From: a virus
IMG/VR virus record: IMGVR_UViG_3300006919_000127
Coordinates: 1-40,843 of that record
Length of the DNA: 40,843 nucleotides
Strand: one strand, 5' to 3'
Shown in pieces: positions 8,932 through 30,215 of the stretch; the first letter of the stretch is position 1, and every line of letters starts with the position of its first letter. The notes below the pieces were generated by a model. It was not told where the DNA came from, ran no database searches, and saw only the letters and a list, made by a program, of their open reading frames with translations. The position numbers and the translations under genes are program-made.

Positions 8932-9371
8932 ACATAGACGCTTTTAAAGAAGAGATTATAGCAGACGAAGGTGTAAAGTATGAAATTTATCTCGATCATC
9001 TTGGTCTGCCTACTTTTGGCATTGGTCACCTTATTACTGAGGCTGATCCTGAACATGGACAACCTATCGGAACGCCAGTCTCGGAAAGCCGAGTGAATAC
9101 ATGTTTCTACAACGACGTTGAGCTGGTTCTTAACGATTGCATGATACTATATCCTGACTTCGAAGATCTACCTGAAGAAGCCCAGAGGGTCATAGCGAAT
9201 ATGATGTTTAACATGGGTAGGCCACGTCTAAGCAAATTCAAAAAGATGAAAGAAGCTGTAGATGCTAGAGATTGGAATGCTGCTGGATATGAGATGGTTG
9301 ATAGTCGTTGGTATAAGCAAGTTCCTAATAGAGCAGAAAGATTGGTGAATAGAATGCATGCTCTTGCGTAG
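8928..9371 (+). CDS. endolysin, T4-type lysozyme (GH24)
   Basis: 147 residues; ATGA overlap with the holin. The N-terminus reads IADEGVKYEIYLDHLGLPTF followed by GIGH, which gives the Glu-Asp-Thr catalytic set of T4 lysozymes (E in ADEG, D in YLDHLG, T before FGIGH). RVIANMMFNMGRPRLSKFKK and a terminal WYKQVPNRAERL are also family-typical. It cleaves the glycan strands of peptidoglycan. No signal peptide is seen, so export depends on the holin. Confidence 0.9.
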   Translation: MNIDAFKEEIIADEGVKYEIYLDHLGLPTFGIGHLITEADPEHGQPIGTPVSESRVNTCFYNDVELVLNDCMILYPDFEDLPEEAQRVIANMMFNMGRPRLSKFKKMKEAVDARDWNAAGYEMVDSRWYKQVPNRAERLVNRMHALA

Positions 9372-9421
9372 TGTCGTGTCTCCTATTACAGACCCGAAAA
9401 CTATGTAAAGAGGAAAGACAA

Positions 9422-11197
9422 ATGCATAACACAGAATATCTCGGACCTCAAAGCTCGTTGTCGCAAGAGATCGACATGATGAAGTATCGTCAAGAAAACG
9501 AAAGCTTTGATGAAAAGATTAAACGTATTGCAAGGGCTCTCTGTGATGGTCAAGAACATCGTTATAATCTGGAAGATATTCTAGGTAATATGCGTTTTCT
9601 GCCAGCAGGACGAGTACAAGCAGCCGTTGGATCAAACAGAATTACTACTGCCTACAACTGTTTTGTAAGTGGTGATATTGAAGACAGTATGAATAGCATT
9701 ATGGAGAAGGCCAGTGAAGCAGCTGAAACTATGCGTAGAGGAGGCGGTATCGGTTATGACTTCTCTAAGATCCGCCCACGTGGTGACAGGATTAAATCAC
9801 TTGATAGCCAGTCGTCGGGGCCGGTTAGTTTTATGGGCATATTTGATGCTGTATGCCAAACCATCGCGAGTTCGGGACATCGGCGAGGTGCACAGATGGG
9901 CGTTCTTAGGGTTGACCATCCGGACATTGAGGAGTTCGTTGCTGCTAAACGTAATTCTGACAAGCTTACTGGTTTTAACGTTAGTGTAGGTATCACAGAC
10001 GAATTTATGGAGGCCGTTCTCAATGATGGGGATAGTTCTTTTACACTGCGCTTCAATGGAGTCGAACACAAGACCATTGATGCGAAAGCATTGTGGGACG
10101 AAATCATGTCGTCGACTTGGGATTGGGCAGAACCTGGCGTGCTGTTCATTGACCGCATTGCTGAATACAATAACCTATTTTATTGCGAAGACATCAGCGC
10201 CACAAACCCGTGTGGTGAGCAGCCTTTGCCTGCTTATGGCGCTTGCCTGCTTGGTTCCTTTAATCTAACAAAGTATGTCACTATGCCGATCACGCTTCCA
10301 GATACTGACGCTGAAGTAAGGCACGCCCACTTTGATTTTAATCAATTCAAGAAGGACATTCAGGAAGTCGTGAGGGCTATGGATAATGTCATTGATAGAA
10401 CTATCTATCCACTCAAACAGCAATCAGACGAAGCAAAGAACAAGCGCCGTATGGGACTTGGCGTCACTGGTTTGGCTAATGCCGGAGAAATGCTCGGTAT
10501 GCCGTATGCCTCAGACGAGTTCCTTGTGTGGGCAGAAAAGGTATTCGCCTGCTTGCGTGACAATTGCTACAGAGCATCAGCTCGACTTGCAAAAGAAAAG
10601 GGCGCATTCCCGCTCTATCGTGAAGACTACTTGAAGTCAAACTTTATTAGAGGTCTACCGGCCTCAGTTAAGAAGGAGATTCGTGAACATGGCATTCGTA
10701 ACTCACATCTCACTTCAATCGCTCCTACAGGTACTATTAGCCTAGTTGCTGATAACATTAGTGGAGGAATTGAGCCGGTATTTAGTCATTACTATGACCG
10801 TACCATTCAAACCTTTGAGGGCCCGAAGGTTGAAAGAGTGGAGGATTATGCTTATGCTCATGGTGTAGAAGGTAAAACAGCAAATGATATTTCAGTACAG
10901 GATCATTTAGCAGTTTTGCTTTTAGCTCAAAACTACATTGATTCTGCGTGCTCAAAAACGTGTAATGTAGGAGATGACGTCTCATATGATGAGTTCAAAC
11001 AGGTCTATGTTGATGCCTGGAAAGGCGGGGCGAAGGGATGCACAACGTTCCGACTTAGTGGTAAAAGATTTGGGGTACTCCAAACCGTGGAAGAAGAAGC
11101 GGAGGTACCTAGCGAGACTACGGAAGTGGCTGAAGAAGAGGGAAAGGTTGAGGCTTGCTTCATCGACCCGCTCACTGGCCAAAAAGAATGCGCATAG
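9422..11197 (+). CDS. nrdJ: adenosylcobalamin-dependent ribonucleotide reductase (class II)
   Basis: 591 residues from the ATG at 9422 (AGAGGAAAG just upstream; an in-frame extension back to 9371 is not conserved-looking). The active-site loop is N262-P-C264-G-E266, equivalent to N437/C439/E441 of E. coli NrdA. C80 and C275 match the substrate-level redox pair, PTGTIS (435-440) binds phosphate, and C579 and C590 are a C-terminal thiol pair. NPCGEQPLPAYGACLLGSFN is typical of B12-dependent enzymes, and no small-subunit gene (NrdB) is nearby. It reduces ribonucleotides to deoxyribonucleotides and needs host B12. Unusually it sits in the late structural block, between lysozyme and nozzle genes. 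Confidence 0.92.
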   Translation: MHNTEYLGPQSSLSQEIDMMKYRQENESFDEKIKRIARALCDGQEHRYNLEDILGNMRFLPAGRVQAAVGSNRITTAYNCFVSGDIEDSMNSIMEKASEAAETMRRGGGIGYDFSKIRPRGDRIKSLDSQSSGPVSFMGIFDAVCQTIASSGHRRGAQMGVLRVDHPDIEEFVAAKRNSDKLTGFNVSVGITDEFMEAVLNDGDSSFTLRFNGVEHKTIDAKALWDEIMSSTWDWAEPGVLFIDRIAEYNNLFYCEDISATNPCGEQPLPAYGACLLGSFNLTKYVTMPITLPDTDAEVRHAHFDFNQFKKDIQEVVRAMDNVIDRTIYPLKQQSDEAKNKRRMGLGVTGLANAGEMLGMPYASDEFLVWAEKVFACLRDNCYRASARLAKEKGAFPLYREDYLKSNFIRGLPASVKKEIREHGIRNSHLTSIAPTGTISLVADNISGGIEPVFSHYYDRTIQTFEGPKVERVEDYAYAHGVEGKTANDISVQDHLAVLLLAQNYIDSACSKTCNVGDDVSYDEFKQVYVDAWKGGAKGCTTFRLSGKRFGVLQTVEEEAEVPSETTEVAEEEGKVEACFIDPLTGQKECA

Positions 11198-18283: not shown

Positions 18284-18922
18284 ATGTTTGAAGACGAAAT
18301 TTTTGAAGACTTAATGGGAGTAGTTGTTGAGACTGGCTATGCGCCGCTTGACAAGAAACTGAACTCCCATATCTGCTATAAAGGCGGAGGAGGTGGAGGC
18401 CAAACCGTTACCAAATCAGGTATCGACGAAGAGTTTAAGCCTTACCTTGAACGTGCGCTTAGCGACGTAACAGATAGATACGAACGCGAAGTAGCACAAG
18501 GTCCTGACGCCATCGTAGCTAAGCTAGATCCTCGCCAAACACAAGCGCTTGGAGAACAAGAACGCTTGGCCCGTGATGCTATCTCAGGTACAGGTATCTA
18601 TGACGTAAAAGGTGAAACACAACGACAGCTGCAAAATCTTGCTGGTCAACAAATGGCTGCTAGTCCTACTGCTCTCGGTTCTGCGAGATCTATACGTGCA
18701 CAACAAGCTGCGCTAGCAGATAAAGGATATGAATTTGCCAAAGACCGTATGAAGATTTCAGAAGGCGGAGTTGGCGCTCTTGGAGAAGTTGGTAGTGCTT
18801 ATCAAGAATACGCACAACGCCGGCTTGATGCACCACACACAAGTGCTGAACGCTACTTTGGCTATTTGTCAGGTGCTCCACAAACTACAACACAAACTCA
18901 AAGCGGCGGTGGAGGTAAGTAA
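18284..18922 (+). CDS. probable virion structural protein
   Basis: 212 residues; AGGAG upstream. A short acidic N-terminus, a CYKGGGGGGQTV linker, then long helices rich in Gln/Ala/Arg (TQALGEQERLARDAISG, SARSIRAQQAALADKGYEFA), ending in a Gln/Gly-rich tail (SGGGGK). The plan resembles the smallest internal core/ejection protein that precedes the larger ones in podoviruses (T7 gp14 position). Assignment is by position and composition. Confidence 0.55.
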   Translation: MFEDEIFEDLMGVVVETGYAPLDKKLNSHICYKGGGGGGQTVTKSGIDEEFKPYLERALSDVTDRYEREVAQGPDAIVAKLDPRQTQALGEQERLARDAISGTGIYDVKGETQRQLQNLAGQQMAASPTALGSARSIRAQQAALADKGYEFAKDRMKISEGGVGALGEVGSAYQEYAQRRLDAPHTSAERYFGYLSGAPQTTTQTQSGGGGK

Positions 18923-19593
18923 TGGCTGTAAGTATTGCAACTCCTGATACTAAAGGTACAGGTCAAAACATTCGCCCTACTCAAGCGCCTCCTCCTGGTC
19001 CGCTAGCCTCTAAGCCTTCTCTTACAGACCAGGCTACTGGCATGGCTAAAGATATGGTCATGCGGAAAGGCGTTGAAATGGCTACTGCACCAGTAGAAAC
19101 TGCCATGCAGACAGGCTTTGATAAGGTTATGACAGGCATTAAAGGAGCTTTTACTCCTGCTTCTCCTACTCTTACCGCTTTGCCTGGTGGACCAACAATC
19201 GCTAATGCTAGTACTGCGGCGCAGTCGCTAGGGCCTACTATGGCTAAAGCCAATATGCTAGCAGCTCCTACTACAGGTGCCTTGCCTGGCACACTAGCCG
19301 CAAAGGCTGGTGCTGGAACTTTAGCTAGTACAGGCGGAACAACCGCCGCGGCTAAGCTAGCAGGAATGAGCGGAGGTGCAGCTGCCGGCGGAGGTATGGC
19401 CGCTCTTGGCGCCGCTGTTCCTTACATTGGTATGGGCCTACTTGCTGGTAAGGCGTTTGGACTATTTAATCGTGGTGGTGAAGTGCATGGACCTTTGTCA
19501 CTAGCAGGTATCTCAAAGGTAACATATAAAAATAAGGGTGGTGGCATCTCAGAAGAGCTACAACTACAAATGAAAGGACCATTGTCTCAGTAG
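18922..19593 (+). CDS. Ala/Gly-rich virion protein, probable small ejection protein
   Basis: 223 residues; TAATG overlap with the previous gene and GGAGG upstream. It is low in complexity, rich in Ala, Gly, Thr and Pro. Residues ~150-185 form a hydrophobic stretch (AALGAAVPYIGMGLLAGKAF) able to insert in a membrane, then NRGGEVHGPLSLAGI. Possibly a pore-forming ejection protein like T7 gp14. No catalytic motif. Confidence 0.55.
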   Translation: MAVSIATPDTKGTGQNIRPTQAPPPGPLASKPSLTDQATGMAKDMVMRKGVEMATAPVETAMQTGFDKVMTGIKGAFTPASPTLTALPGGPTIANASTAAQSLGPTMAKANMLAAPTTGALPGTLAAKAGAGTLASTGGTTAAAKLAGMSGGAAAGGGMAALGAAVPYIGMGLLAGKAFGLFNRGGEVHGPLSLAGISKVTYKNKGGGISEELQLQMKGPLSQ

Positions 19594-19602
19594 GAGGGAA
19601 TC

Positions 19603-22600
19603 ATGAAGCTTAAAAAGTTTGAGCGAAAAGACCGTTATGGTAATATGATTTCCATGGAGTTCGACACTGAAGGTTTGCCTGTGCCTATGCTACAAGAAAT
19701 ACCTATGGTGTATGACCATCCAGGCGAGCCAAAAGGTACTGATACTGTACCTGCATGGCTTACTCCGGGCGAGTTTGTAGTTAACAAAGAAGCTACAGAC
19801 ATGTACGGCGATGTCATTGAGAAAATGAACGATCACGGTCGTGAAATACAAGACGCTAAGATGCATGATGGTGGCTCTGTTGAGGGCGGCAAGTATCATC
19901 CAGTACATCGTAGCGAAGGTGGCTATTCAATAGTCGATACTATTAAACAAATACCTGGATACATGTGGGGAGAAGGAAGACGCGGTGGCAAAGCAAAAGA
20001 AGCGATGCAAGATTATCGGGAAGAAATTAAAAGGCGCCGTAATCAGGAAGAAGGCTTGCTGTCTAAGATCACAAATTACTTTGAAGATGGCGGCAATGTT
20101 CCTATGCCACAGCCTCGTCCTCCATATCTAGCAGCCTCATCTATTTACGATAGACTTCGTGATAGAGGTTTTAGTCATAACGCAGCAGTAGGTATTGTTG
20201 CTAACTTTGAAACTGAGTCGGGCTTTAATCCAGGCGCTAAGCAGCATAATCAAAAGTATGCAAATAAATACAAGTCTGACGGCAGTAAAAACCCTAATTT
20301 TGGCGTAAAGCCTGTAGACTCTTACTTTCCAGGTCAAGGCTACGGTCTTGCTCAATGGACAGAATCTCGTCGTGATGACTTGAAAAAGTTTGCTGCAGAC
20401 AAAGATATGCCGATGGATGACATCAATACGCAGTTAGACTTTATGATGCAAGAGATGGGTGGCGAATTTAAGAACGTTCGTGATAATCTAAGTAACTCTC
20501 AAAGTCCTGAAGCTGCGACTCAATATTTTCTACAAGACTACGAAAAAGCAGGTAAGCCTGCATCTGAACGTAGAATGCAATATGCTAGAGAATTTTCAGA
20601 CTTTATTACTAATCAAAAAGGAGAAGACCCTGCACCACAAGTACCTCTTCCACCGTCAAACCAAGAATCTCCACCGCGTCCTGTTGATGACGGTTCGCGT
20701 CCACCTACGTTATTGGAGACGCTATTTGGTGGCTTACCTATCTTCAACCAGTCAAGGCAAGGTTCGTTTGTAGATTATAAGCAACTTGGCGGCGAAATGG
20801 TTGACCCAACTGATCTTGTTACTGGCGTAAGAGGCATGAGATCAAACATTCCAGAGTTTAATTATGGCATTCAACAAGCCGAACTCTACGATCGCGCTGT
20901 AGGAGACTCAGCTGACGACCTTGGTACTGCCCCGACTGGCGTGCCAGTGGCCTCTCAGGCTCCGCCAGAGCCTAAGGATTTGCCGTTTGCTAGTAATATA
21001 ATGAAAGATCCGGATGTTGAAAGGGCCGTGCTTAGAGCGGAGAGTGAAGTAGCTAAAGATACGACTGATCGGGAAGATCTTGGCACTGTTCCTACTATGG
21101 TAGCGCCACCTGAAAAGGATGGTGACGATCTTGGTACAGCGCCTACAGCTCCACCAAAACCAGTGGTAGAGCGTGCAGATCCACGTCAGTTTGGAGATAC
21201 TCCTGAAGCTCGTATGGATTACAATACTGAAAACTCTGAAGCTTATCAAGCCTACTTGCGTAGAGCTCGGTCAGCAGGCGTTAAGCCTAAGTCGCCGTCT
21301 GAGTGGCGTGAGTACAATACTCCAGACAAGACTGGTGAATCACAATCTTCTCGTCATGCCATTTTGTCCGGTGCTTCTGAATCTCAGACACAGGCTCTTG
21401 AAGATAACCAAGCAGCGGCTGAAGTTCTTAACGAAGGTGGCTCATCATCAGATGCTAACACCGCATCGAACATGACTCCTACTACAGAACCCGACAAAGA
21501 AACTAAGAAGTCAGAGACTATTGCAAGCATTATTCAGAAAGGACAAAACCATACTGGTCCTGCTGAAGACCAGCCAGGAGATAACTCTGACGCTGGCTCT
21601 GTTCAAAATGAAGGTGATAAACAAGACGACGGCAAGAAGAAAGAAGCTGAGTCAATGTTTAAGTCTTTGTTTGGCGACTTGTTCGACAAGAAAGAGCTTG
21701 CACGTATGGCTGTTATGTATCTTGGTTCTCGTGCAATGGGTTACTCTCATCAAGGTTCTATGGGCTTTGCAGCTAAGAACTACATTACTCGTGTTGACGC
21801 AAAGGTGGCTAATCGTGATAAGTTCCTACAAACAAACGTTGGCAAGTTTACGCCAGACTCTCTTGAACTCTACCGTGAGACCGGTAAAATTTCTGATCTT
21901 ATTCCAGTTGGAAAGCCTATTCAGCGTAAAGGCGAATATAAGACTTTCTATGGAGAAGGCGGTAAGAAAATTACTGGCGAAAAGGTAGTACAAGGAGATA
22001 ATACATTCTACGTAGATCAAAACGGAAAGGTTATTAATCAATATAACTATCGTGAAGACGAGCGTGATGTACCTGGTACTGAAGCTTACGAGTCTAGAGT
22101 AAGTTCAAACTCTAAAGACAATGTAGCTATCATCAAGTCTATGAAGACTAAGATCGGAGAAGGTAAAGATGGTAGTGCAATGTACAAGACTGACATCAAT
22201 CCAGAAGTTGAAGGCCGTAAGGTAGCTGAATGGGCTGTCAAGAATGGCGTTGACATGGAAAGAGTTGGTGGTCTACTTCAGTTAGCTATGCAAGATGCTA
22301 TTAACGACGATCGTCAAGATGGTTCACGAGCTCAAAGCTTGATTCCTTATCTAGATAGTCTTGTTATTCGTGAGAAGACCGAGTATCCAGACTTGTTTAT
22401 GGTAGGCGAAGGCGATGATAGACAAGCCGTAGATCCTGAGCAGTTCATGGCTCTTAACGATGATGTAGCTTTTGTTATGCAGCAAATTGGTGGAAAAGGC
22501 AGTAACTTTGTTTTGGCCAATCAGTATTATACGCAAGCGATTAAAGAGTGGAACAATACACTTACCGATGACGATCGCAAGCAGTATACGAGAATGGCTA

Positions 22601-22698
22601 AAGGTACAGGCCTTTCACCGTTTATGGTCTTTGTACAAAAAGATCTTGCAGACTTTATGGCTAAAACTCAAGGAGTCACAGTCAAAACAGCAGAATAG
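19603..22698 (+). CDS. internal virion protein with phage-type lysozyme domain
   Basis: 1031 residues; AGGAGG before the ATG. Residues 41-68 (GTDTVPAWLTPGEFVVNKEA) are a motif of phage tape-measure or structural proteins. Residues ~180-335 form a tail-lysozyme domain: IYDRLRDRGFSHNAAVGIVA, FETESGFNPGA with likely catalytic E203 or E205, GYGLAQWTESRR, then a helical bundle. This would open peptidoglycan for DNA entry. Residues ~340-650 are Pro/Ser/Asp-rich and disordered-looking, with three copies of an octapeptide, DDLGTAPT or close (438-445, 491-498, 508-515). The C-terminal third is helical. It starts the trio of large ejection proteins. Confidence 0.8.
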   Translation: MKLKKFERKDRYGNMISMEFDTEGLPVPMLQEIPMVYDHPGEPKGTDTVPAWLTPGEFVVNKEATDMYGDVIEKMNDHGREIQDAKMHDGGSVEGGKYHPVHRSEGGYSIVDTIKQIPGYMWGEGRRGGKAKEAMQDYREEIKRRRNQEEGLLSKITNYFEDGGNVPMPQPRPPYLAASSIYDRLRDRGFSHNAAVGIVANFETESGFNPGAKQHNQKYANKYKSDGSKNPNFGVKPVDSYFPGQGYGLAQWTESRRDDLKKFAADKDMPMDDINTQLDFMMQEMGGEFKNVRDNLSNSQSPEAATQYFLQDYEKAGKPASERRMQYAREFSDFITNQKGEDPAPQVPLPPSNQESPPRPVDDGSRPPTLLETLFGGLPIFNQSRQGSFVDYKQLGGEMVDPTDLVTGVRGMRSNIPEFNYGIQQAELYDRAVGDSADDLGTAPTGVPVASQAPPEPKDLPFASNIMKDPDVERAVLRAESEVAKDTTDREDLGTVPTMVAPPEKDGDDLGTAPTAPPKPVVERADPRQFGDTPEARMDYNTENSEAYQAYLRRARSAGVKPKSPSEWREYNTPDKTGESQSSRHAILSGASESQTQALEDNQAAAEVLNEGGSSSDANTASNMTPTTEPDKETKKSETIASIIQKGQNHTGPAEDQPGDNSDAGSVQNEGDKQDDGKKKEAESMFKSLFGDLFDKKELARMAVMYLGSRAMGYSHQGSMGFAAKNYITRVDAKVANRDKFLQTNVGKFTPDSLELYRETGKISDLIPVGKPIQRKGEYKTFYGEGGKKITGEKVVQGDNTFYVDQNGKVINQYNYREDERDVPGTEAYESRVSSNSKDNVAIIKSMKTKIGEGKDGSAMYKTDINPEVEGRKVAEWAVKNGVDMERVGGLLQLAMQDAINDDRQDGSRAQSLIPYLDSLVIREKTEYPDLFMVGEGDDRQAVDPEQFMALNDDVAFVMQQIGGKGSNFVLANQYYTQAIKEWNNTLTDDDRKQYTRMAKGTGLSPFMVFVQKDLADFMAKTQGVTVKTAE

Positions 22699-22707
22699 GA
22701 GAAAACT

Positions 22708-25700
22708 ATGAGTGCAATTGAACAGCTAGCTACGAAGTTTACCCGCGTAGACGGCGAATTTGTAGCAGCAAATCAACTGTCACCAGATTATTACTTCGTC
22801 GATGCTGATACTCTGGCTTCTACATCTGACAAAGACGATAATGGAAATCCTTTACGTTATCGTTTGAAGGGTATTGACGCTCCTGAAATAACTAAAATCT
22901 TTGGCCCCAACGCTATCGCTCCAGGTACCGTTGGGGGCGCTACAGCTACGACTACTTTGCAAAACCTTGCACGCGAGCAGGGATTTACGAATGTAGTAAA
23001 GACTGGCGAGTTCGACGACTTCGGTCGAGAAATCATTGATCTACAAGACGATGCTGGTCGTAGCTGGGAAAGAATGGTTATCTCATCAGGAGTTTTAGAT
23101 CCTAATAGATACACAAGCAACGAGGCACTTCGCTCTCTCGAGGTTGCCAAAGTTTTCGGATCAGGCTCAGAACAAAAGAACGACTGGGACCTGGCAAGCG
23201 ACGCCATTTCTCAAGCTATTGAAGATGAGACTATTTACGAAGCGCAGTTTCGTACACAAGCCTTAAATGAAGTAGCTCTTGAACATGGTTACGGCTATGC
23301 TCCTGGCTCTGTAATGTTCCGTCATCCTGACCGAGATCTTAGAAATAAGGCCACTAATCCGCTGTCTACAGCTTGGGATGTAGGCCTTACTGGCGCTATT
23401 GAAGGTTTATATGGCGCTCTTGATCTAGTTGGCGATGCTACTGGCTGGGAGTGGGCTGATAACGTTGGCGAAGCAGGTATTTACCGTGCTCGTCAGGCCA
23501 TTAAAGCCAAGCCTGAAATAATCACCTCATACAAGGATGTTGATGCATTCTGGGGTAAGTCAGGGGCCTTACAGTATATAGCTAACAACGCAGCTATCTC
23601 ACTTCCTTACATGGCAACATCTATTCTTGGCGCTGTAGCAGCTCCTGCAACAGGTGGCCTATCAATGGCGGCACCTGCGGCTTTGTATGCAGGCACTGTT
23701 TACAATGAGATGGAAGGAGATAATAAAAATCCTGCTCTTGCTGTAACTACCGGTATCGCGCAAGCTGTTCTTGATAGAGTTGGTTTGTCGTTCCTCGCTA
23801 AAGGTACCTTGCTTACAAAAGAAGGGCGTGATCAAGCGGTTCAAGCTTTGATTAAAAGTAAGAAAGGCGATCATGTAAACATTAAGACCGCAAATGAAGC
23901 TAAAGATTACTTGCTTAGAGCTTCTCGTGCAGAGACAGCAGCACTAGCAACTGATGCTGCTAAGTTTGCAAAGCAACAGATTGGAGCTAGAAACGTAGCA
24001 CGTACTGCTTTAAAAAAGGTAGGAGTAGGTGGTCTTGGTGAAGCTGGAACTGAAGCAATTCAAGAGGGTATTGGTTACACGGCTGCTCATGCTGCTAATA
24101 ATTTCCGTGATTGGGATGCAAACGAATTCAACGACCGTCTTATTGAGGCCTCGATCGCCGGTGGTACTTTGGGTGGAGCGTTCTCCGTTCCCGGAACACT
24201 ATACGACTATGGTGCTTGGGTAGACGTAGCTCACCGTAAAGCTCCAGACGATATGAAGCGAAGGTCTTGGGCCGGAAATAAGGCAAAGCAAGATATTGCT
24301 GAGCGTGGCGTACAGTTTAACGTGCAAGATCAGAACATAGCAGCTGGTATTGAGGCCAACGCTACTGATCCAGATCTTATAGAAGACTTGAACCAACGTG
24401 TAGATCGTGAGATGAAGCGTCGCAGAGAGCGGACTGTAATGCAAGTCGGAGCAGACCTATGGCGTGCTATACCAGGTCTATGGCGTGGTCTTACTCGTCA
24501 AGCTTTTGATGAAGACCTACAAAACAAGTCTACTGAAGCACGTGTATTTGGTGAAAGTGTAGGATCTAATCTTCAAAGATCTACTAGTGGCGCTACATAC
24601 GAGAATCGTAAACACCATTTGATTACTGAAGTTCGTAACATGATGGGTGGAGTAGATAGACTGCTAGCTGCCTTTGATAGAAACGATAAGCGTAGTTCAC
24701 GTATTCAGTTTAGTGAAGAGTACTATACTGCATATCAACGCGCGCTTGCCAAGGCAAAGAGCGAAGGTAGAGAAATAAACTGGGATACAGATCTTGAAGG
24801 CCCGCTTGCTGATAAGAAGGCTGAGTTTATAGCATTTAATAAACTACTTCGAGACGTTGGCGACCGGCTGCACTCAATGCAGGCAGTACATAACAAAGAT
24901 CTTGGTTATATTTTCGACTATCTGTCTAAGTTCAAGTCAATTAACAAAGAAGCTGTTGAAGCTAATCAAGCTGGGTTTGAAGCTGCTCTTATGCAAGAGT
25001 ATAATATGAACCCTGATCAGGCAAAAGAAGTGGCCGAAGCTATTCTTAATATGGATGGTGTAGCCTCTCTTGATGACGCCTTCTCAGTAACTGACCGTAA
25101 GAAGTTCAAACCAGGTTCTCATAAACAGCGTGATCTTGGTCTGTCTGAAAGAGAAGCGTTTGCGCCATTTATGGAAAACGACCTATTCACAAACATCTCT
25201 AACGCGGCTAAGTCTGCTGTTCGTTATACCGTGCTTGAAGAGTACGTTGGTAGTGATAACAAAAAGCTTAACTACCGTCTTGCTAAGATTGAGAAAGAAC
25301 TTATTCAGTCCGGCATGGGAGCTAACGAAGCAAAGGCTAGAGTAGACGCGCTTGCTAAAGAGATGAAAGACTACTTTGACGCAGAGTCTGGTAACTACAA
25401 GAGACTTAATAATCCTGTAATTAACTGGGTTCAAAAGAACCTGTTGTTTGTTACTACTATTACTGGTCTACCGCTTGCGGTTATCTCAAACTTTGTTGAA
25501 GCTGCGCTTGTATTCAAAGGCATGACTGTCGATCAGATCTTCGGCAAAGGCAAAGAGAAAGATGGTAGTCTAAACTCTATGGCTAGAGCCTTTGTAGATG
25601 AGATTGGTAACACTGCAACAAGAGCTTATGGCGCTGCTACAAATATGCCAACACCTCACAAGCGTGATAGTGGTGGCCATGCAGTAGCTAAAGATCTTGG

Positions 25701-26658
25701 CTTCTTCGATTGGGAAGTTGGTGCTGCTCATACTACAGGTGTTAGTGAAACAGGTCATTGGCGTCAAAAGATCCTTGACATGTACTTTAAAGTTATACTG
25801 CTACAGCAATGGACTAATGCTACGCGTGCCTCACGGGCTGCGATTGCTGGTGATTTTATTACTGATCATCTGTCTGTTGTAATCGCTGCTAGAAATACTG
25901 GTGTATTTACTAACGAAGCTGCTGAAGCTGAAGAAGCTATTCGTAATCTTGGCATTGATGTTGAGTTTATGATGAACTACATTAGTGGTAAAGACGCTGA
26001 CGGTAATCCTTTTGAAGCTACTGAAGAACGTAATAAGTTGTTTGACGACTTTATGCGTGACGCTACATTTAACTTTGTTAATGAAGCTGTAGCCATGCCA
26101 CAAGCGGCTAACAGACCTAAGATTTTTCAAGATCCAAGGTTTGCGTTCTTTACTCAGTTCCAAGGCTTTATTGCTACGTTTACAGCTAACCATATTCCAA
26201 AGATGTGGGGAGAATACGTAAAGCGTGGTACACCGGCTATGAAGTATAATATCTTTGCGACCATGTCTACAATGATCTTGCTTGGATTCGTATCACAGCA
26301 TTTGAAAGACCTGCTGAAATACGGCAAGACAACTCCTTACTTTAGCGGAGCTGAGTACATTCGTCGTGGTGTAGGAGCTAGTGGTCTGCTTGGTACAGGT
26401 GAGCGTGTAATTGACTTTGTCTTTCCGATGTATGAAGAAAGATACAAAACAAATATTGGCTGGGCGTTTGGCACCGTGTCAGGCGAGTCAGCTGCATTAA
26501 GTAAAGCATTAAGATTGGGAGGTCTAGGCGTGGATGTAGCAACAGGTGAAAAGACTCCGGGTTATGCAGCAGTTCGCATTTCGCCGTTAGTTCAAGCAAT
26601 ACATCAACAAACTAAAGATCTACCACAATGGGGTTTCGGAGGTCCGGATGGCAATTAA
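22708..26658 (+). CDS. large internal virion protein with N-terminal SNase-like nuclease domain
   Basis: 1316 residues; AGGAG before the ATG. Residues ~28-150 follow the staphylococcal nuclease order: FVDADT (D32, D34), YRLKGIDAPE (R52, D57, E60), a GATATTTLQNLA helix, DDFGREII (R107), and a helix ending LRSLEVAKVF. These match SNase D19/D21, R35, D40, E43 and R87. The remaining ~1150 residues are helical with hydrophobic segments near 295-335, 912-937 and 1187-1205, as expected for a protein that enters membranes; it resembles large phage polyvalent proteins. Overlaps the next gene by 11 bases. The fusion implies a nuclease delivered with the DNA. The domain call is by motif only; it could be structural. 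Confidence 0.78.
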   Translation: MSAIEQLATKFTRVDGEFVAANQLSPDYYFVDADTLASTSDKDDNGNPLRYRLKGIDAPEITKIFGPNAIAPGTVGGATATTTLQNLAREQGFTNVVKTGEFDDFGREIIDLQDDAGRSWERMVISSGVLDPNRYTSNEALRSLEVAKVFGSGSEQKNDWDLASDAISQAIEDETIYEAQFRTQALNEVALEHGYGYAPGSVMFRHPDRDLRNKATNPLSTAWDVGLTGAIEGLYGALDLVGDATGWEWADNVGEAGIYRARQAIKAKPEIITSYKDVDAFWGKSGALQYIANNAAISLPYMATSILGAVAAPATGGLSMAAPAALYAGTVYNEMEGDNKNPALAVTTGIAQAVLDRVGLSFLAKGTLLTKEGRDQAVQALIKSKKGDHVNIKTANEAKDYLLRASRAETAALATDAAKFAKQQIGARNVARTALKKVGVGGLGEAGTEAIQEGIGYTAAHAANNFRDWDANEFNDRLIEASIAGGTLGGAFSVPGTLYDYGAWVDVAHRKAPDDMKRRSWAGNKAKQDIAERGVQFNVQDQNIAAGIEANATDPDLIEDLNQRVDREMKRRRERTVMQVGADLWRAIPGLWRGLTRQAFDEDLQNKSTEARVFGESVGSNLQRSTSGATYENRKHHLITEVRNMMGGVDRLLAAFDRNDKRSSRIQFSEEYYTAYQRALAKAKSEGREINWDTDLEGPLADKKAEFIAFNKLLRDVGDRLHSMQAVHNKDLGYIFDYLSKFKSINKEAVEANQAGFEAALMQEYNMNPDQAKEVAEAILNMDGVASLDDAFSVTDRKKFKPGSHKQRDLGLSEREAFAPFMENDLFTNISNAAKSAVRYTVLEEYVGSDNKKLNYRLAKIEKELIQSGMGANEAKARVDALAKEMKDYFDAESGNYKRLNNPVINWVQKNLLFVTTITGLPLAVISNFVEAALVFKGMTVDQIFGKGKEKDGSLNSMARAFVDEIGNTATRAYGAATNMPTPHKRDSGGHAVAKDLGFFDWEVGAAHTTGVSETGHWRQKILDMYFKVILLQQWTNATRASRAAIAGDFITDHLSVVIAARNTGVFTNEAAEAEEAIRNLGIDVEFMMNYISGKDADGNPFEATEERNKLFDDFMRDATFNFVNEAVAMPQAANRPKIFQDPRFAFFTQFQGFIATFTANHIPKMWGEYVKRGTPAMKYNIFATMSTMILLGFVSQHLKDLLKYGKTTPYFSGAEYIRRGVGASGLLGTGERVIDFVFPMYEERYKTNIGWAFGTVSGESAALSKALRLGGLGVDVATGEKTPGYAAVRISPLVQAIHQQTKDLPQWGFGGPDGN

Positions 26659-29600
26659 AGTAACACAAAACGTTGGTCAACAGGCTGGCCAAGAAGCTGC
26701 TGCTCGTAGTCAGCGTCAGCTTTCTTTGCGGCCTAAGACTGTCGTTGAAAGAATGATTGAAGCTGGTCCTCCTTCTCTTGAACAGCAGCCTGTACAGACT
26801 CGTGAAGGTAATATTCAAGAGCTGGCAAGACAAGCTGCGGCTGGTGAAATACAATTAGGAGATCCAAAAGAAAAGGTACAACTTCCGCCTGAACGTAGTG
26901 GTTCTCCAATCAGCCCACAAGATCAGCAACGTATGATGCAAGAGTCTCGACAGAGATTTGAAGAAGCTAAGTACGCTGACATGGCGGCAGCTCAAAGAGA
27001 AGAAGAGCGGGTTCCTGCTTTATCTGAAACCTATGATGGTATTACAAATGACGGGTTTGGAGAGTCTATTCTACGTGCAGATAAATTCTCCAACCTTTTT
27101 CAAAGTAAGATGGAAGATACTGGCGCTACAGTTGGTGGCGCCTTTCTTACTCAAAAAGAAACTCTTGGAGTAGGGTTTGCTGGTGCCAGTCCCGAAGGTG
27201 TAGGCATCAATCCACTCTCTACGAAAGGCGTTCTGTTTGATCCACAAGGATTTGATGCTGGTAAACTGCGTGAAGATGGCGTTACACAAGTCGATCCCAT
27301 GTTCTCCCGCACTATGGGCATGGTAACTGAACGCTTTATTGCAAGCAACCAATCCTTTGAAGCTGATCAAGAGCCTGATGCCTTTGACCAAGAAACAAAT
27401 AAGATGGTCGATGAAGAAGGTGAAATGAGACGTGGTATAGGTAATGCTGCGCTTGGCCGTGAGATCTTTCGCGCTTGGAAGCGTGAACAAAATCTTGCTG
27501 CTGGCCGGCCTACTGACGAATACTCAGAAGCTGGTGTAGCTAACGACCAGTTTGAGGTATTAGGTACTCTTGCAAAAGAGATGTACCACTCAGCAAATCC
27601 CGAACTTTATGAAAGAACTACTAACGAAAGTGAAGGCAATGTGAAGTTTAAGCTCACACCTGCTGGTCAAGTAGCGTTACGTGCAGCCGAAGCGGCCAAG
27701 CCCGACGCCTTTATCAAGCAAGAAATTCCTCCTTCTACAGTTCCACGTCCTATTGCTAAGAGACTTGGTGAAGGCGAAGCAAGAACTATTCGTAAAGAAA
27801 AGACTACTGCTGTAGTTAACCGTCGTATTAAGCGCGTTGAAGAAGCTCGCGATAATATGAACTCAGTAGGCCACATCGTTGATCCACTTCGTCGTAAGAT
27901 CTTTACGCAGCTTGCTATGCAGGCTCTCGTAGATATTAAGCGTGGTGAAGCGCTCCCCAAGATCGGTAACCTTTTTAACATCGGCCCTGAAAAGTTTGTG
28001 TCTTTTCAAGGTGAGAAGAAAAGAAAGGCCATGGAAGGAGATGACTCATACGATCCACGGTTTGAGATGGAAAAACAAATCGTACGGTTTCTTGAAACCA
28101 TGAATACGATTGGCCGATACAGTAATAGAGTTAATCACCTTGACTTCGTGTTGCAAGAGCTACAAACGCGTATGCACGTAGCTCAGACTCGCTTTAATCC
28201 ACAAGGTATTCCATGGATGCGGTTCGTAACGGGCGGTGCCAAGCCGAGTGAGATTCGTAAAGGATCTGGAAGCGATTCAGAACTCATGTTCAAAGAAATG
28301 ATTGCCATGCTCATGATTCCGGGAGCTAAGAAGCTCTTGCCTGATGAGCGTGTAAAGGCCTTTGATCGTGAGTGGAACTCGCCAAACCATGGTGCTTTGT
28401 CAGGTTACGTTACTGCCGGTCAAAGTATTGCTAACTCGCTGATGGATAATGATACAGACAAGAAGACCACAGAAATGCTAGGTCAAATAACTCTTGAAGA
28501 GAAAGGTATCAATGTACCACCAGCTTTGCAGTCAACTCCGAAGCTTGACGTGCCGGAAAGCGTGCTTGTAGAAGCTATGTCTGAAGGTCTTGAAGGCTTG
28601 AACCTTATTGAAGCGGCTCATGAGCTTTATCAGTACGACGCTAATGATAGGTTCCATTCAAACATGGGAGTAGAGATTGATGGTAAGACTCACGGACCTG
28701 CTTCTAACTTGATGCAGATCGGCGTAGTGAAAGCTGCTTACCGAGTTGGCGTATTGCGTAGTGAAGGGGCTACTAAGAACCTTGATGACTTTACTGTTGC
28801 CGAACTTTACAACGGCGAAATGGTAGAGGAAGATGCGCAGGCTGGCGATATTCGCGACGCTATGCGAGATTATATTCTCAAACATAGTCAAGCGTACGCA
28901 GAAAATAAGATGGGTAACTCAGACCTTGCTTATAAGGTGCATGAGATTATTAAGCTTGCGGTACAAGATAGAGATAACTATCTAAAGAAACCGCCGATGA
29001 CTCTTGCTTATGGTCAGCTTTTGAAGAACCTGAAAGGTGCTGTATCTGATGCAGTCTACTCAGGCAAAATGGCTCCAAAGATCCGTAAACTTATGGCCGA
29101 TAAAGAGTTAGGAAACGCCTTAGCAGACAGTGCTGGTCCACGTGAAACTGCAGATGATGTGATGATTAACATTCTTCATGACATTCTTGCAGACGCTATT
29201 GATGCTGAACTACATCCGGACGTGGTCCGTATTGGTCAGCTTTTGAGAGCTAACAACGTAGTTGCCATGCTTTCAGACGATATTATGGTTGTGAAGAACG
29301 CCATTGGTGTAGACAACTACATCGGCGCTCGTCAGTCTATGATTAAAGAGCTGAAAGGTAATATTAACGTCACACTGCCTTCTGGTCGCAAGGCCGGTGG
29401 AGTTCCTATCTACTCTTCTACTCCTTCTGGTTCTGCTCTCAGACAAGGAAAGCCTGGAGGATGGGGCCGAGGTCGAGTTATTCCCGCCGTTATCCAAGGA
29501 ATTGACGGAGCGTGGATGAATAAGACCTTTACACGGGAATCGTGGAGTGACTTGAACAACTCTTACATGTTACCTATCATGGACGCTATTAAGACAGACC

Positions 29601-30166
29601 TGGCGAGTGCGAGGAAGGTCAGGCGGCATGCAAATAGGAACTGGTGGAATACAATTCAAGAATACTCGTACGTAGATGAGATCATGGGTACTTGGGCGCC
29701 AAAAACTATTGCTGATTTTAAGCAAAGATTGGCAGACATGGACCCTAACCAGCCAGTAGACGTGAGTATGGACAGTAAGTATCGTGCTTTCGGTTGGTTG
29801 CTCGATCCAGCAAAGGGTCTTGATGATACGCCGTTCGATAACTTGGTATCTACATTGTACGATACTATGGACTTTCCACCAAGACCGAAAGGCCAGTCAG
29901 TTAAGGCTTATGAAGCTGTAAAGCGTAACACAGCAAAGAAAATTGCTAAAGAGTACGTGATTCCACAGATGTACAAGCAAGGAGAATCGGCTCCGCATTT
30001 ACAACAACTTACTCCAAAACAGATGCTTGACTTTTTCAATCGCATGATGACTGCATTGAACATCGAGTCAAGAAATACTAAGACAGTTAAGACTGTAGCT
30101 GAGAATAGAGCTAATCTATTTAACATGGCTAAAGACTCTGACATCTTACAAATCGACATTGGATAA
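26648..30166 (+). CDS. probable virion RNA polymerase (single-subunit type, N4-vRNAP-like role)
   Basis: 1172 residues; GGAGG 5 bases before the ATG, inside the previous gene. The first ~400 residues are helical/disordered, as in virion proteins. Then single-subunit RNA polymerase motifs appear in order: ELQTRMH with FNPQG (R508, like DxxGR), EIDGKTHGPASN (motif A, D678), KKPPMTLAYG (motif B, K780 and Y788; T7 has KRSVMTLAYG), TLPSGRKAGG, PAVIQGIDGAWM (D953, like T7 HSQDxxH) and PIMDAIKTD (motif C, D979, Met for the usual His). Spacings A-B 110 and B-C 191 are close to T7 (102, 173). Location with ejection proteins suggests it is packaged and makes early RNA. Not proved; motif C is divergent. 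Confidence 0.75.
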   Translation: MAIKVTQNVGQQAGQEAAARSQRQLSLRPKTVVERMIEAGPPSLEQQPVQTREGNIQELARQAAAGEIQLGDPKEKVQLPPERSGSPISPQDQQRMMQESRQRFEEAKYADMAAAQREEERVPALSETYDGITNDGFGESILRADKFSNLFQSKMEDTGATVGGAFLTQKETLGVGFAGASPEGVGINPLSTKGVLFDPQGFDAGKLREDGVTQVDPMFSRTMGMVTERFIASNQSFEADQEPDAFDQETNKMVDEEGEMRRGIGNAALGREIFRAWKREQNLAAGRPTDEYSEAGVANDQFEVLGTLAKEMYHSANPELYERTTNESEGNVKFKLTPAGQVALRAAEAAKPDAFIKQEIPPSTVPRPIAKRLGEGEARTIRKEKTTAVVNRRIKRVEEARDNMNSVGHIVDPLRRKIFTQLAMQALVDIKRGEALPKIGNLFNIGPEKFVSFQGEKKRKAMEGDDSYDPRFEMEKQIVRFLETMNTIGRYSNRVNHLDFVLQELQTRMHVAQTRFNPQGIPWMRFVTGGAKPSEIRKGSGSDSELMFKEMIAMLMIPGAKKLLPDERVKAFDREWNSPNHGALSGYVTAGQSIANSLMDNDTDKKTTEMLGQITLEEKGINVPPALQSTPKLDVPESVLVEAMSEGLEGLNLIEAAHELYQYDANDRFHSNMGVEIDGKTHGPASNLMQIGVVKAAYRVGVLRSEGATKNLDDFTVAELYNGEMVEEDAQAGDIRDAMRDYILKHSQAYAENKMGNSDLAYKVHEIIKLAVQDRDNYLKKPPMTLAYGQLLKNLKGAVSDAVYSGKMAPKIRKLMADKELGNALADSAGPRETADDVMINILHDILADAIDAELHPDVVRIGQLLRANNVVAMLSDDIMVVKNAIGVDNYIGARQSMIKELKGNINVTLPSGRKAGGVPIYSSTPSGSALRQGKPGGWGRGRVIPAVIQGIDGAWMNKTFTRESWSDLNNSYMLPIMDAIKTDLASARKVRRHANRNWWNTIQEYSYVDEIMGTWAPKTIADFKQRLADMDPNQPVDVSMDSKYRAFGWLLDPAKGLDDTPFDNLVSTLYDTMDFPPRPKGQSVKAYEAVKRNTAKKIAKEYVIPQMYKQGESAPHLQQLTPKQMLDFFNRMMTALNIESRNTKTVKTVAENRANLFNMAKDSDILQIDIG

Positions 30167-30173
30167 AAAAAAT

Positions 30174-30215
30174 AGGGGTATCCCGAGCGTAATGCTTAGG
30201 ATACCCCTTTTTTTT
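30174..30215. terminator. bidirectional Rho-independent terminator between convergent blocks
   Basis: Inverted repeat AGGGGTATCC (30174-30183) and GGATACCCCT (30199-30208), 10 perfect base pairs with a 15-base loop. The right arm runs into eight T (30208-30215), and the left arm is preceded by a run of A (30165-30172), so it can act for both strands. It lies 8 bases after the stop of the + strand block and touches the stop codon of the last - strand gene (30214-30216). Confidence 0.9.

Follow-up and report, generated by a model that had tools for sequence, protein, structure and literature searches.

Which task could place a staphylococcal-nuclease (SNase) domain at the head of a giant protein encoded among the structural genes of a virus? 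The question is raised by the 40,843-base virus record analyzed here over its full length (the window). Three giant ORFs of 1031, 1316 and 1172 aa close its plus-strand block of structural genes and are faced on the minus strand by genes for an RNA polymerase, a primase/helicase, an exonuclease and a DNA polymerase. In the initial annotation, the middle ORF of the three was read as an SNase-like domain fused to a large internal or ejection protein, by which an active nuclease could be carried into the cell. The features concerned are listed in Table 1.

Table 1. Positions of the SNase-bearing ORF, its key residues and the adjoining large ORFs in the window.
Feature	Position	Strand	Basis
Fusion of SNase and putative ejection protein, whole ORF, 1316 aa	22708..26658	+	ATG start, AGGAG upstream; homologues; CRP-7 gp34
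SNase-like domain, residues ~25-153	22780..23166	+	Model range matched to SNase 11/12-141; profile match
D32 and D34 (SNase D19, D21)	22801..22809	+	Invariant, 81/81
R52 (SNase R35)	22861..22863	+	Invariant, 81/81
D57 (SNase D40)	22876..22878	+	D in 52/81 only
E60 (SNase E43)	22885..22887	+	Invariant, 81/81
R107 (SNase R87)	23026..23028	+	Invariant, 81/81
Body, residues 160-1316, predicted almost all-helical; putative gp16-like ejection-protein body	23185..26655	+	Model, VIA matches, phrog_6958, hydrophobicity
Adjoining 1031-aa ORF, Phage_lysozyme2 domain at residues 178-333; probably a partner ejection protein	19603..22698	+	Pfam, E 1.2e-34
1172-aa ORF, 11-base overlap with the 1316-aa ORF; presumed third large protein of the block	26648..30166	+	Membership from position
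223-aa Gly/Ala-rich ORF, where T7 has gp14	18922..19593	+	Position only

The remaining parts of the window also hold recognizable elements. A strong hairpin with A and T runs on either side (30175-30207) lies between the convergent gene blocks and resembles a two-way terminator. An NrdA-like large subunit of ribonucleotide reductase is encoded at 9371-11197; Roseobacter phage CRP-7 is annotated with an adenosylcobalamin-dependent enzyme instead. The 2117-aa ORF at 11366-17719 matches virion structural and tail fibre families (phrog_3287, phrog_14417) over its N-terminal ~500 residues and no family beyond them.

The N-terminal part of the 1316-aa protein is an SNase domain. When the window protein was scanned alone, no SNase match was obtained in Pfam (PF00565, up to an E-value of 10, thus below the gathering score) or in PHROG. 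However, one homologue (L169:4140-8951) passes the curated PF00565 cut-off, with 24.4 versus 21 bits, so the miss reflects the limited sensitivity of a single sequence. A domain profile was of more use than any one protein: it comprised 48 N-terminal regions from homologues gathered in IMG/VR, 46 of them non-redundant at 90% (window included) and two of a type with a lysozyme placed first. Nine of these 48 members match PF00565 singly; in PHROG, seven match phrog_452 (‘endonuclease’) and 20 match phrog_18798, a family of unknown function. Compared with 177,635 PDB sequences, the profile places SNase in the first and second ranks (E 0.0016 and 0.0032), and the alignment spans the whole domain with D19, D21, R35, D40, E43 and R87 in register. 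An earlier profile of six sequences had given chance matches only.

Structure prediction against SNase had been proposed as a check of the initial annotation, and the SNase OB-barrel fold was indeed obtained. The AlphaFold2 model of the domain has a pLDDT of 81. Its best 50 matches are all SNase, both with Foldseek against the PDB (best E 1.3e-4) and with VIA-align (top Z 7.5 over 118 residues, rmsd 4.2). In a viral structure library, the top match has 1368 residues, a length from which it is taken to be CRP-7 gp34, and is followed mainly by thermonucleases of phages and giant viruses. The domain shares with the SNases and thermonucleases of PF00565, including stand-alone phage thermonucleases, the OB-barrel plus helices and the motif order D-x-D-T, R, E, GR. 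It differs from them in its fusion to a giant helical phage protein and in the positions of D40 and P42, both of which vary among the homologues. The motif by itself is weak, as a loose version of the pattern arises in four of 2000 shuffles of the protein; the proof lies in homology, and a chance motif is ruled out by fold, profile and conservation taken together. Among named phages, a search for the domain in other contexts returned three records that are not significant (E 0.3 to 3), one of them an Arthrobacter phage tape measure protein. Membership in a defence system was rejected, as a PADLOC scan gave no match.

The relatives surveyed were the best 80 of 119 and the best 80 of 152. Several of the homologue searches used queries containing the SNase domain; the 80-of-152 search was made with the C-terminal core only and is unbiased towards the domain. 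This core was present in 197 ORFs of the fetched loci, 100 of which are distinct; 18 of these are cut at the 5' end and were dropped, leaving 82 that are 5'-complete. The SNase domain is present in 81 of the 82. In the 82nd (L049), it sits in a separate ORF because of a frame break; among the members of the marine group examined, no intact 5'-complete homologue lacks the fusion. The giant ORFs of L049 and of another locus, L085, are frame-broken, probably through assembly errors. A scan of bacterial genomes added three loci in metagenome bins, which are outside these counts: one is a short ORF, and the two long ones carry the domain.

The 81 domains are highly divergent, with a median pairwise identity of 26% and a minimum of 15%. 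Nevertheless, five of the 135 domain columns never vary: D32, D34, R52, E60 and R107. T35 and G117 show one variant each. A tree was computed from the protein outside this domain; on it, no change is inferred at the five invariant columns, versus a median of 25 per domain column. The initial annotation had listed D34, D57, E60, R52 and R107 as the catalytic and calcium-binding residues; all five are found at exactly these numbers, and D32 joins the same set. Four of them are invariant, so the list holds except for D57. At this column D is replaced in 29 of the 81 domains (E in nine, S in nine, N in seven, and also Q, T, R and W), and the tree just described implies that D was gained or lost 14 times. 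Loss of a catalytic residue in close relatives, which the initial annotation had named as evidence against its reading, is seen for D57 only, where proteins at 56% and 53% identity carry N and Q. The proposal that all five SNase residues are essential here was rejected, since D57 is not conserved. In SNase itself, D40 is a Ca2+ ligand and, in mutants, probably the least critical of the five residues. The pattern across the homologues is the one expected of an active site under selection in which one metal ligand has been relaxed, and not of a decayed enzyme. As its key residues are unchanged through very deep divergence, the domain probably has an important part to play when infection takes place.

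The remainder of the protein is predicted to be almost entirely helical (model pLDDT 69), and its hydrophobicity peaks around residues 295, 912 and 1177. The family phrog_6958, ‘virion structural protein’, is matched by 29 of the 30 homologues tested. When 978 structures were re-aligned to the body model with VIA, the phiM1 ejectosome ranked first (Z 8.1, 279 residues, rmsd 5.1), the T7 core proteins fourth (Z 6.0, 264 residues, rmsd 6.7) and the E1004 core proteins fifth (Z 6.0, 268 residues, rmsd 7.8). All three matches begin at model residues 431-434, and the T7 structure entry, 9jyy, contains gp16. Values of Z 6-8 are middling and common for helical models, by the tool's own warning, and the matches to ejectosome cores are suggestive, not proof. 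Foldseek gave no significant match for the body model (best E 0.42), and a sequence profile of the body gave chance matches only against the PDB. Taken with the homologue annotation and the synteny, the helical model and these weak T7-type matches support the fusion to a large internal or ejection protein that had been claimed for this ORF.

The closest functional parallel is T7 gp16 (internal virion protein D, a peptidoglycan transglycosylase), and the 1316-aa protein probably works like it, to judge by size, gene order, the adjoining protein with a peptidoglycan hydrolase and the weak structural matches. The two proteins have nearly the same length (1316 versus 1318 aa) and the same plan, an N-terminal enzyme cassette of ~150 residues on a helical body, with a partial structural match. 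The T7 order gp14-gp15-gp16 is paralleled by the ORFs of 223, 1031 and 1316 aa, in which the giant protein likewise follows smaller internal-protein-like genes; the 223-aa ORF itself matches no Pfam or PHROG family. The window protein differs in having a nuclease in place of the transglycosylase, and in the window another protein, of 1172 aa, comes after the gp16-like one. This last ORF has no match in Pfam, in PHROG or among named phages. No significant sequence relationship to gp16 was found: profile-profile comparison (hhalign) of the body with six gp16 proteins gave E 0.086 and a probability of 0.7%, and the SNase domain gave nothing significant against gp16 proteins either. In T7, the transglycosylase lies in residues 1-156 of gp16, which make up the wings of the tunnel through the periplasm (excerpts of PMC8954989); we read these ‘wings’ as lying outside the DNA lumen. 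In the wider gp16 family, the match to T7 gp16 begins only around residue 144-159 in several of the relatives listed, and around residue 185 in the ICP3 protein. The N-terminal cassette differs or is absent in some gp16 proteins, and in the window family this slot is filled by the SNase domain.

A cultured relative is Roseobacter phage CRP-7, a marine podovirus of the RCA lineage that infects a cultured Roseobacter RCA strain (excerpts of PMC6918029). It has the same gene order as the window, from the three giant plus-strand ORFs to the opposed genes for RNA polymerase, primase/helicase, exonuclease and DNA polymerase. Its gp34 (1368 aa, ‘hypothetical protein’) is built in the same way, keeps each of the five invariant residues and has D where SNase has D40; it differs in the body, with ~24% identity, and has a G at the P42 position. 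Another paper, PMC12629253, was set aside as a source on this group, since it treats other roseophages, of the CRP-822 type. Also related are the Kochitakasuvirus phages KPP25 and phiR18, whose virion structural protein has a homologous C-terminal body. The phiR18 protein shows no SNase domain at its N-terminus, which means that the body can function in the absence of the nuclease. Virion proteomics for these relatives was not found in the excerpts of PMC13340246.

The protein encoded upstream of the SNase protein bears peptidoglycan hydrolases of several unrelated families across the relatives. Upstream ORFs were scanned for SNase-first loci (45/54 available) and for lysozyme-first loci (all seven available of eight). 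In the 45 proteins, Pfam identified Phage_lysozyme2 in eight, Phage_lysozyme in eight and SLT in seven (family counts that may overlap), and Hydrolase_2, Pesticin, SLT_2 and GH108 in one or two each. In eight of the 81 homologues (L086, L088, L111, L124, L162, L163, L173 and L196), a lysozyme-like domain is fused ahead of the SNase domain, the Pfam match being shown for two of the eight and lying slightly under the cut-off. A recognizable hydrolase is found in none of the seven upstream neighbours of such loci. Since the hydrolase families are swapped and the lysozyme moves between the two proteins, the cell-wall enzyme is freely exchanged, and the nuclease is never replaced. This exchange between neighbours points to a joint role of the two proteins in a single machine, and together with the lysozyme-like fusions it suggests that the N-terminal end of the SNase protein lies on the periplasmic side. 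Vibrio and Alteromonas phages have virion RNA polymerases and internal virion proteins whose N-terminal parts resemble the extra N-terminal region of L086.

We consider it probable that the protein is a podovirus DNA-ejection protein like T7 gp16, in which an N-terminal SNase domain replaces the transglycosylase and would serve as a periplasmic nuclease on DNA outside the conduit. The parts of this proposal are not equally firm. It is likely that the domain is an active nuclease, and ejection of the protein with the genome is just as likely. The periplasm is favoured, by a little, as the place of action. That rival or incoming DNA is the main target is possible, though rather doubtful.

The protein would be packaged in the virion and would exit with or before the DNA, and the helical body would help to build a conduit across the envelope. 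The N-terminal domain would then come to rest outside the DNA lumen, like gp16-N in T7, in the periplasm, where the Ca2+-rich conditions of seawater hosts would allow it to act as a nuclease. As a guess, packing or partial unfolding may keep it inactive inside the virion. Its likeliest substrate would be DNA located in the envelope outside the conduit: later-arriving phage genomes, mis-ejected DNA or other incoming DNA. In this respect it would resemble SNIPE, a membrane nuclease of host defence that cuts phage DNA at the envelope during injection; SNIPE is nevertheless unrelated, being host-encoded, with a GIY-YIG fold and a cytoplasmic nuclease domain (excerpts of PMC13190303). It is reasonable to suppose that an active nuclease enters the cell, as the initial annotation had it. 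The targets named there (host DNA, rivals and plasmids) are candidates, and of the two possible sites of action the periplasm is a better fit than the cytoplasm. Tentatively, the ejectosome nuclease might even stand guard where the DNA enters: present before the first phage gene is expressed, it would destroy foreign DNA in the envelope while the phage's own DNA is safe in the tube, a virion-borne immune function across a widespread marine phage group.

Several observations weigh against the periplasmic reading. One might expect occasional loss of an accessory that kills rivals, and universal retention hints at a core infection step. Since such retention speaks for a function used each time the phage infects, the main rival is processing of the phage's own genome, in which the nuclease would trim or release the first or last genome end in the conduit. 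This is unlikely in our estimate, even with the domain kept in nearly all homologues while the neighbour's hydrolase is swapped, because SNase is not sequence-specific and the Kochitakasuvirus homologue manages without the domain, a fact that counts against the periplasmic reading as well. As a precedent, the ejected gp44 of 80alpha does act on the ends of the phage genome; it protects them and does not cut (excerpts of PMC7290940). The variable D57 position also counts against a periplasmic nuclease, and it would favour a catalytically weak or dead OB-fold, retained in the ejection machine as a module for binding DNA or for assembly. Some SNase-fold domains do have binding roles. Such a module would have no clear reason to keep the equivalents of D21, R35, E43 and R87 where a typical column changed about 25 times, and D40 is probably the residue that SNase can best spare; we therefore regard this possibility as quite improbable.

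Degradation of host DNA, RNA or plasmids in the cytoplasm, for takeover or nucleotides, seems to us equally improbable. SNase cleaves both DNA and RNA, which would suit such a role; however, free Ca2+ in the cytoplasm is too low for classical SNase, and the incoming genome of the phage itself would lie open to attack. For T7 gp16, entry of one part into the cytoplasm has been proposed (excerpts of PMC8954989). The SNase domain, though, is N-terminal, which is the periplasmic side in T7 gp16, and stands behind a lysozyme in the eight fused homologues. Least probable is a late, non-structural nuclease that is encoded in the structural block and is no virion component: the homologues are classed as virion structural proteins, the body has its structural matches to ejectosome cores, and the gene lies between the lysozyme-bearing protein and the third giant protein, as in CRP-7. 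Against the periplasmic nuclease that we prefer, it must be said that a non-specific enzyme packed beside the phage's own genome would need some control still to be explained.

Ejection proteins of short-tailed phages are known to carry peptidoglycan hydrolases and, in N4-like phages, an RNA polymerase. No report of a fusion between SNase and an ejection protein was present among the literature matches listed (the best 20 for broad searches). The nuclease fold and the type of machine are both known; their combination and its conservation are, as far as these searches show, apparently undescribed. In a little-studied group of marine short-tailed phages, an SNase-type domain thus heads a giant protein that probably enters the cell together with the viral DNA. 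The finding would replace the label ‘hypothetical protein’ for a gene product widespread among marine viral contigs, and it raises the sharp question of how a virion keeps an active nuclease from its own genome. CRP-7 and its Roseobacter host offer a cultured system for asking whether phages deliver to the envelope a nuclease that acts at once.
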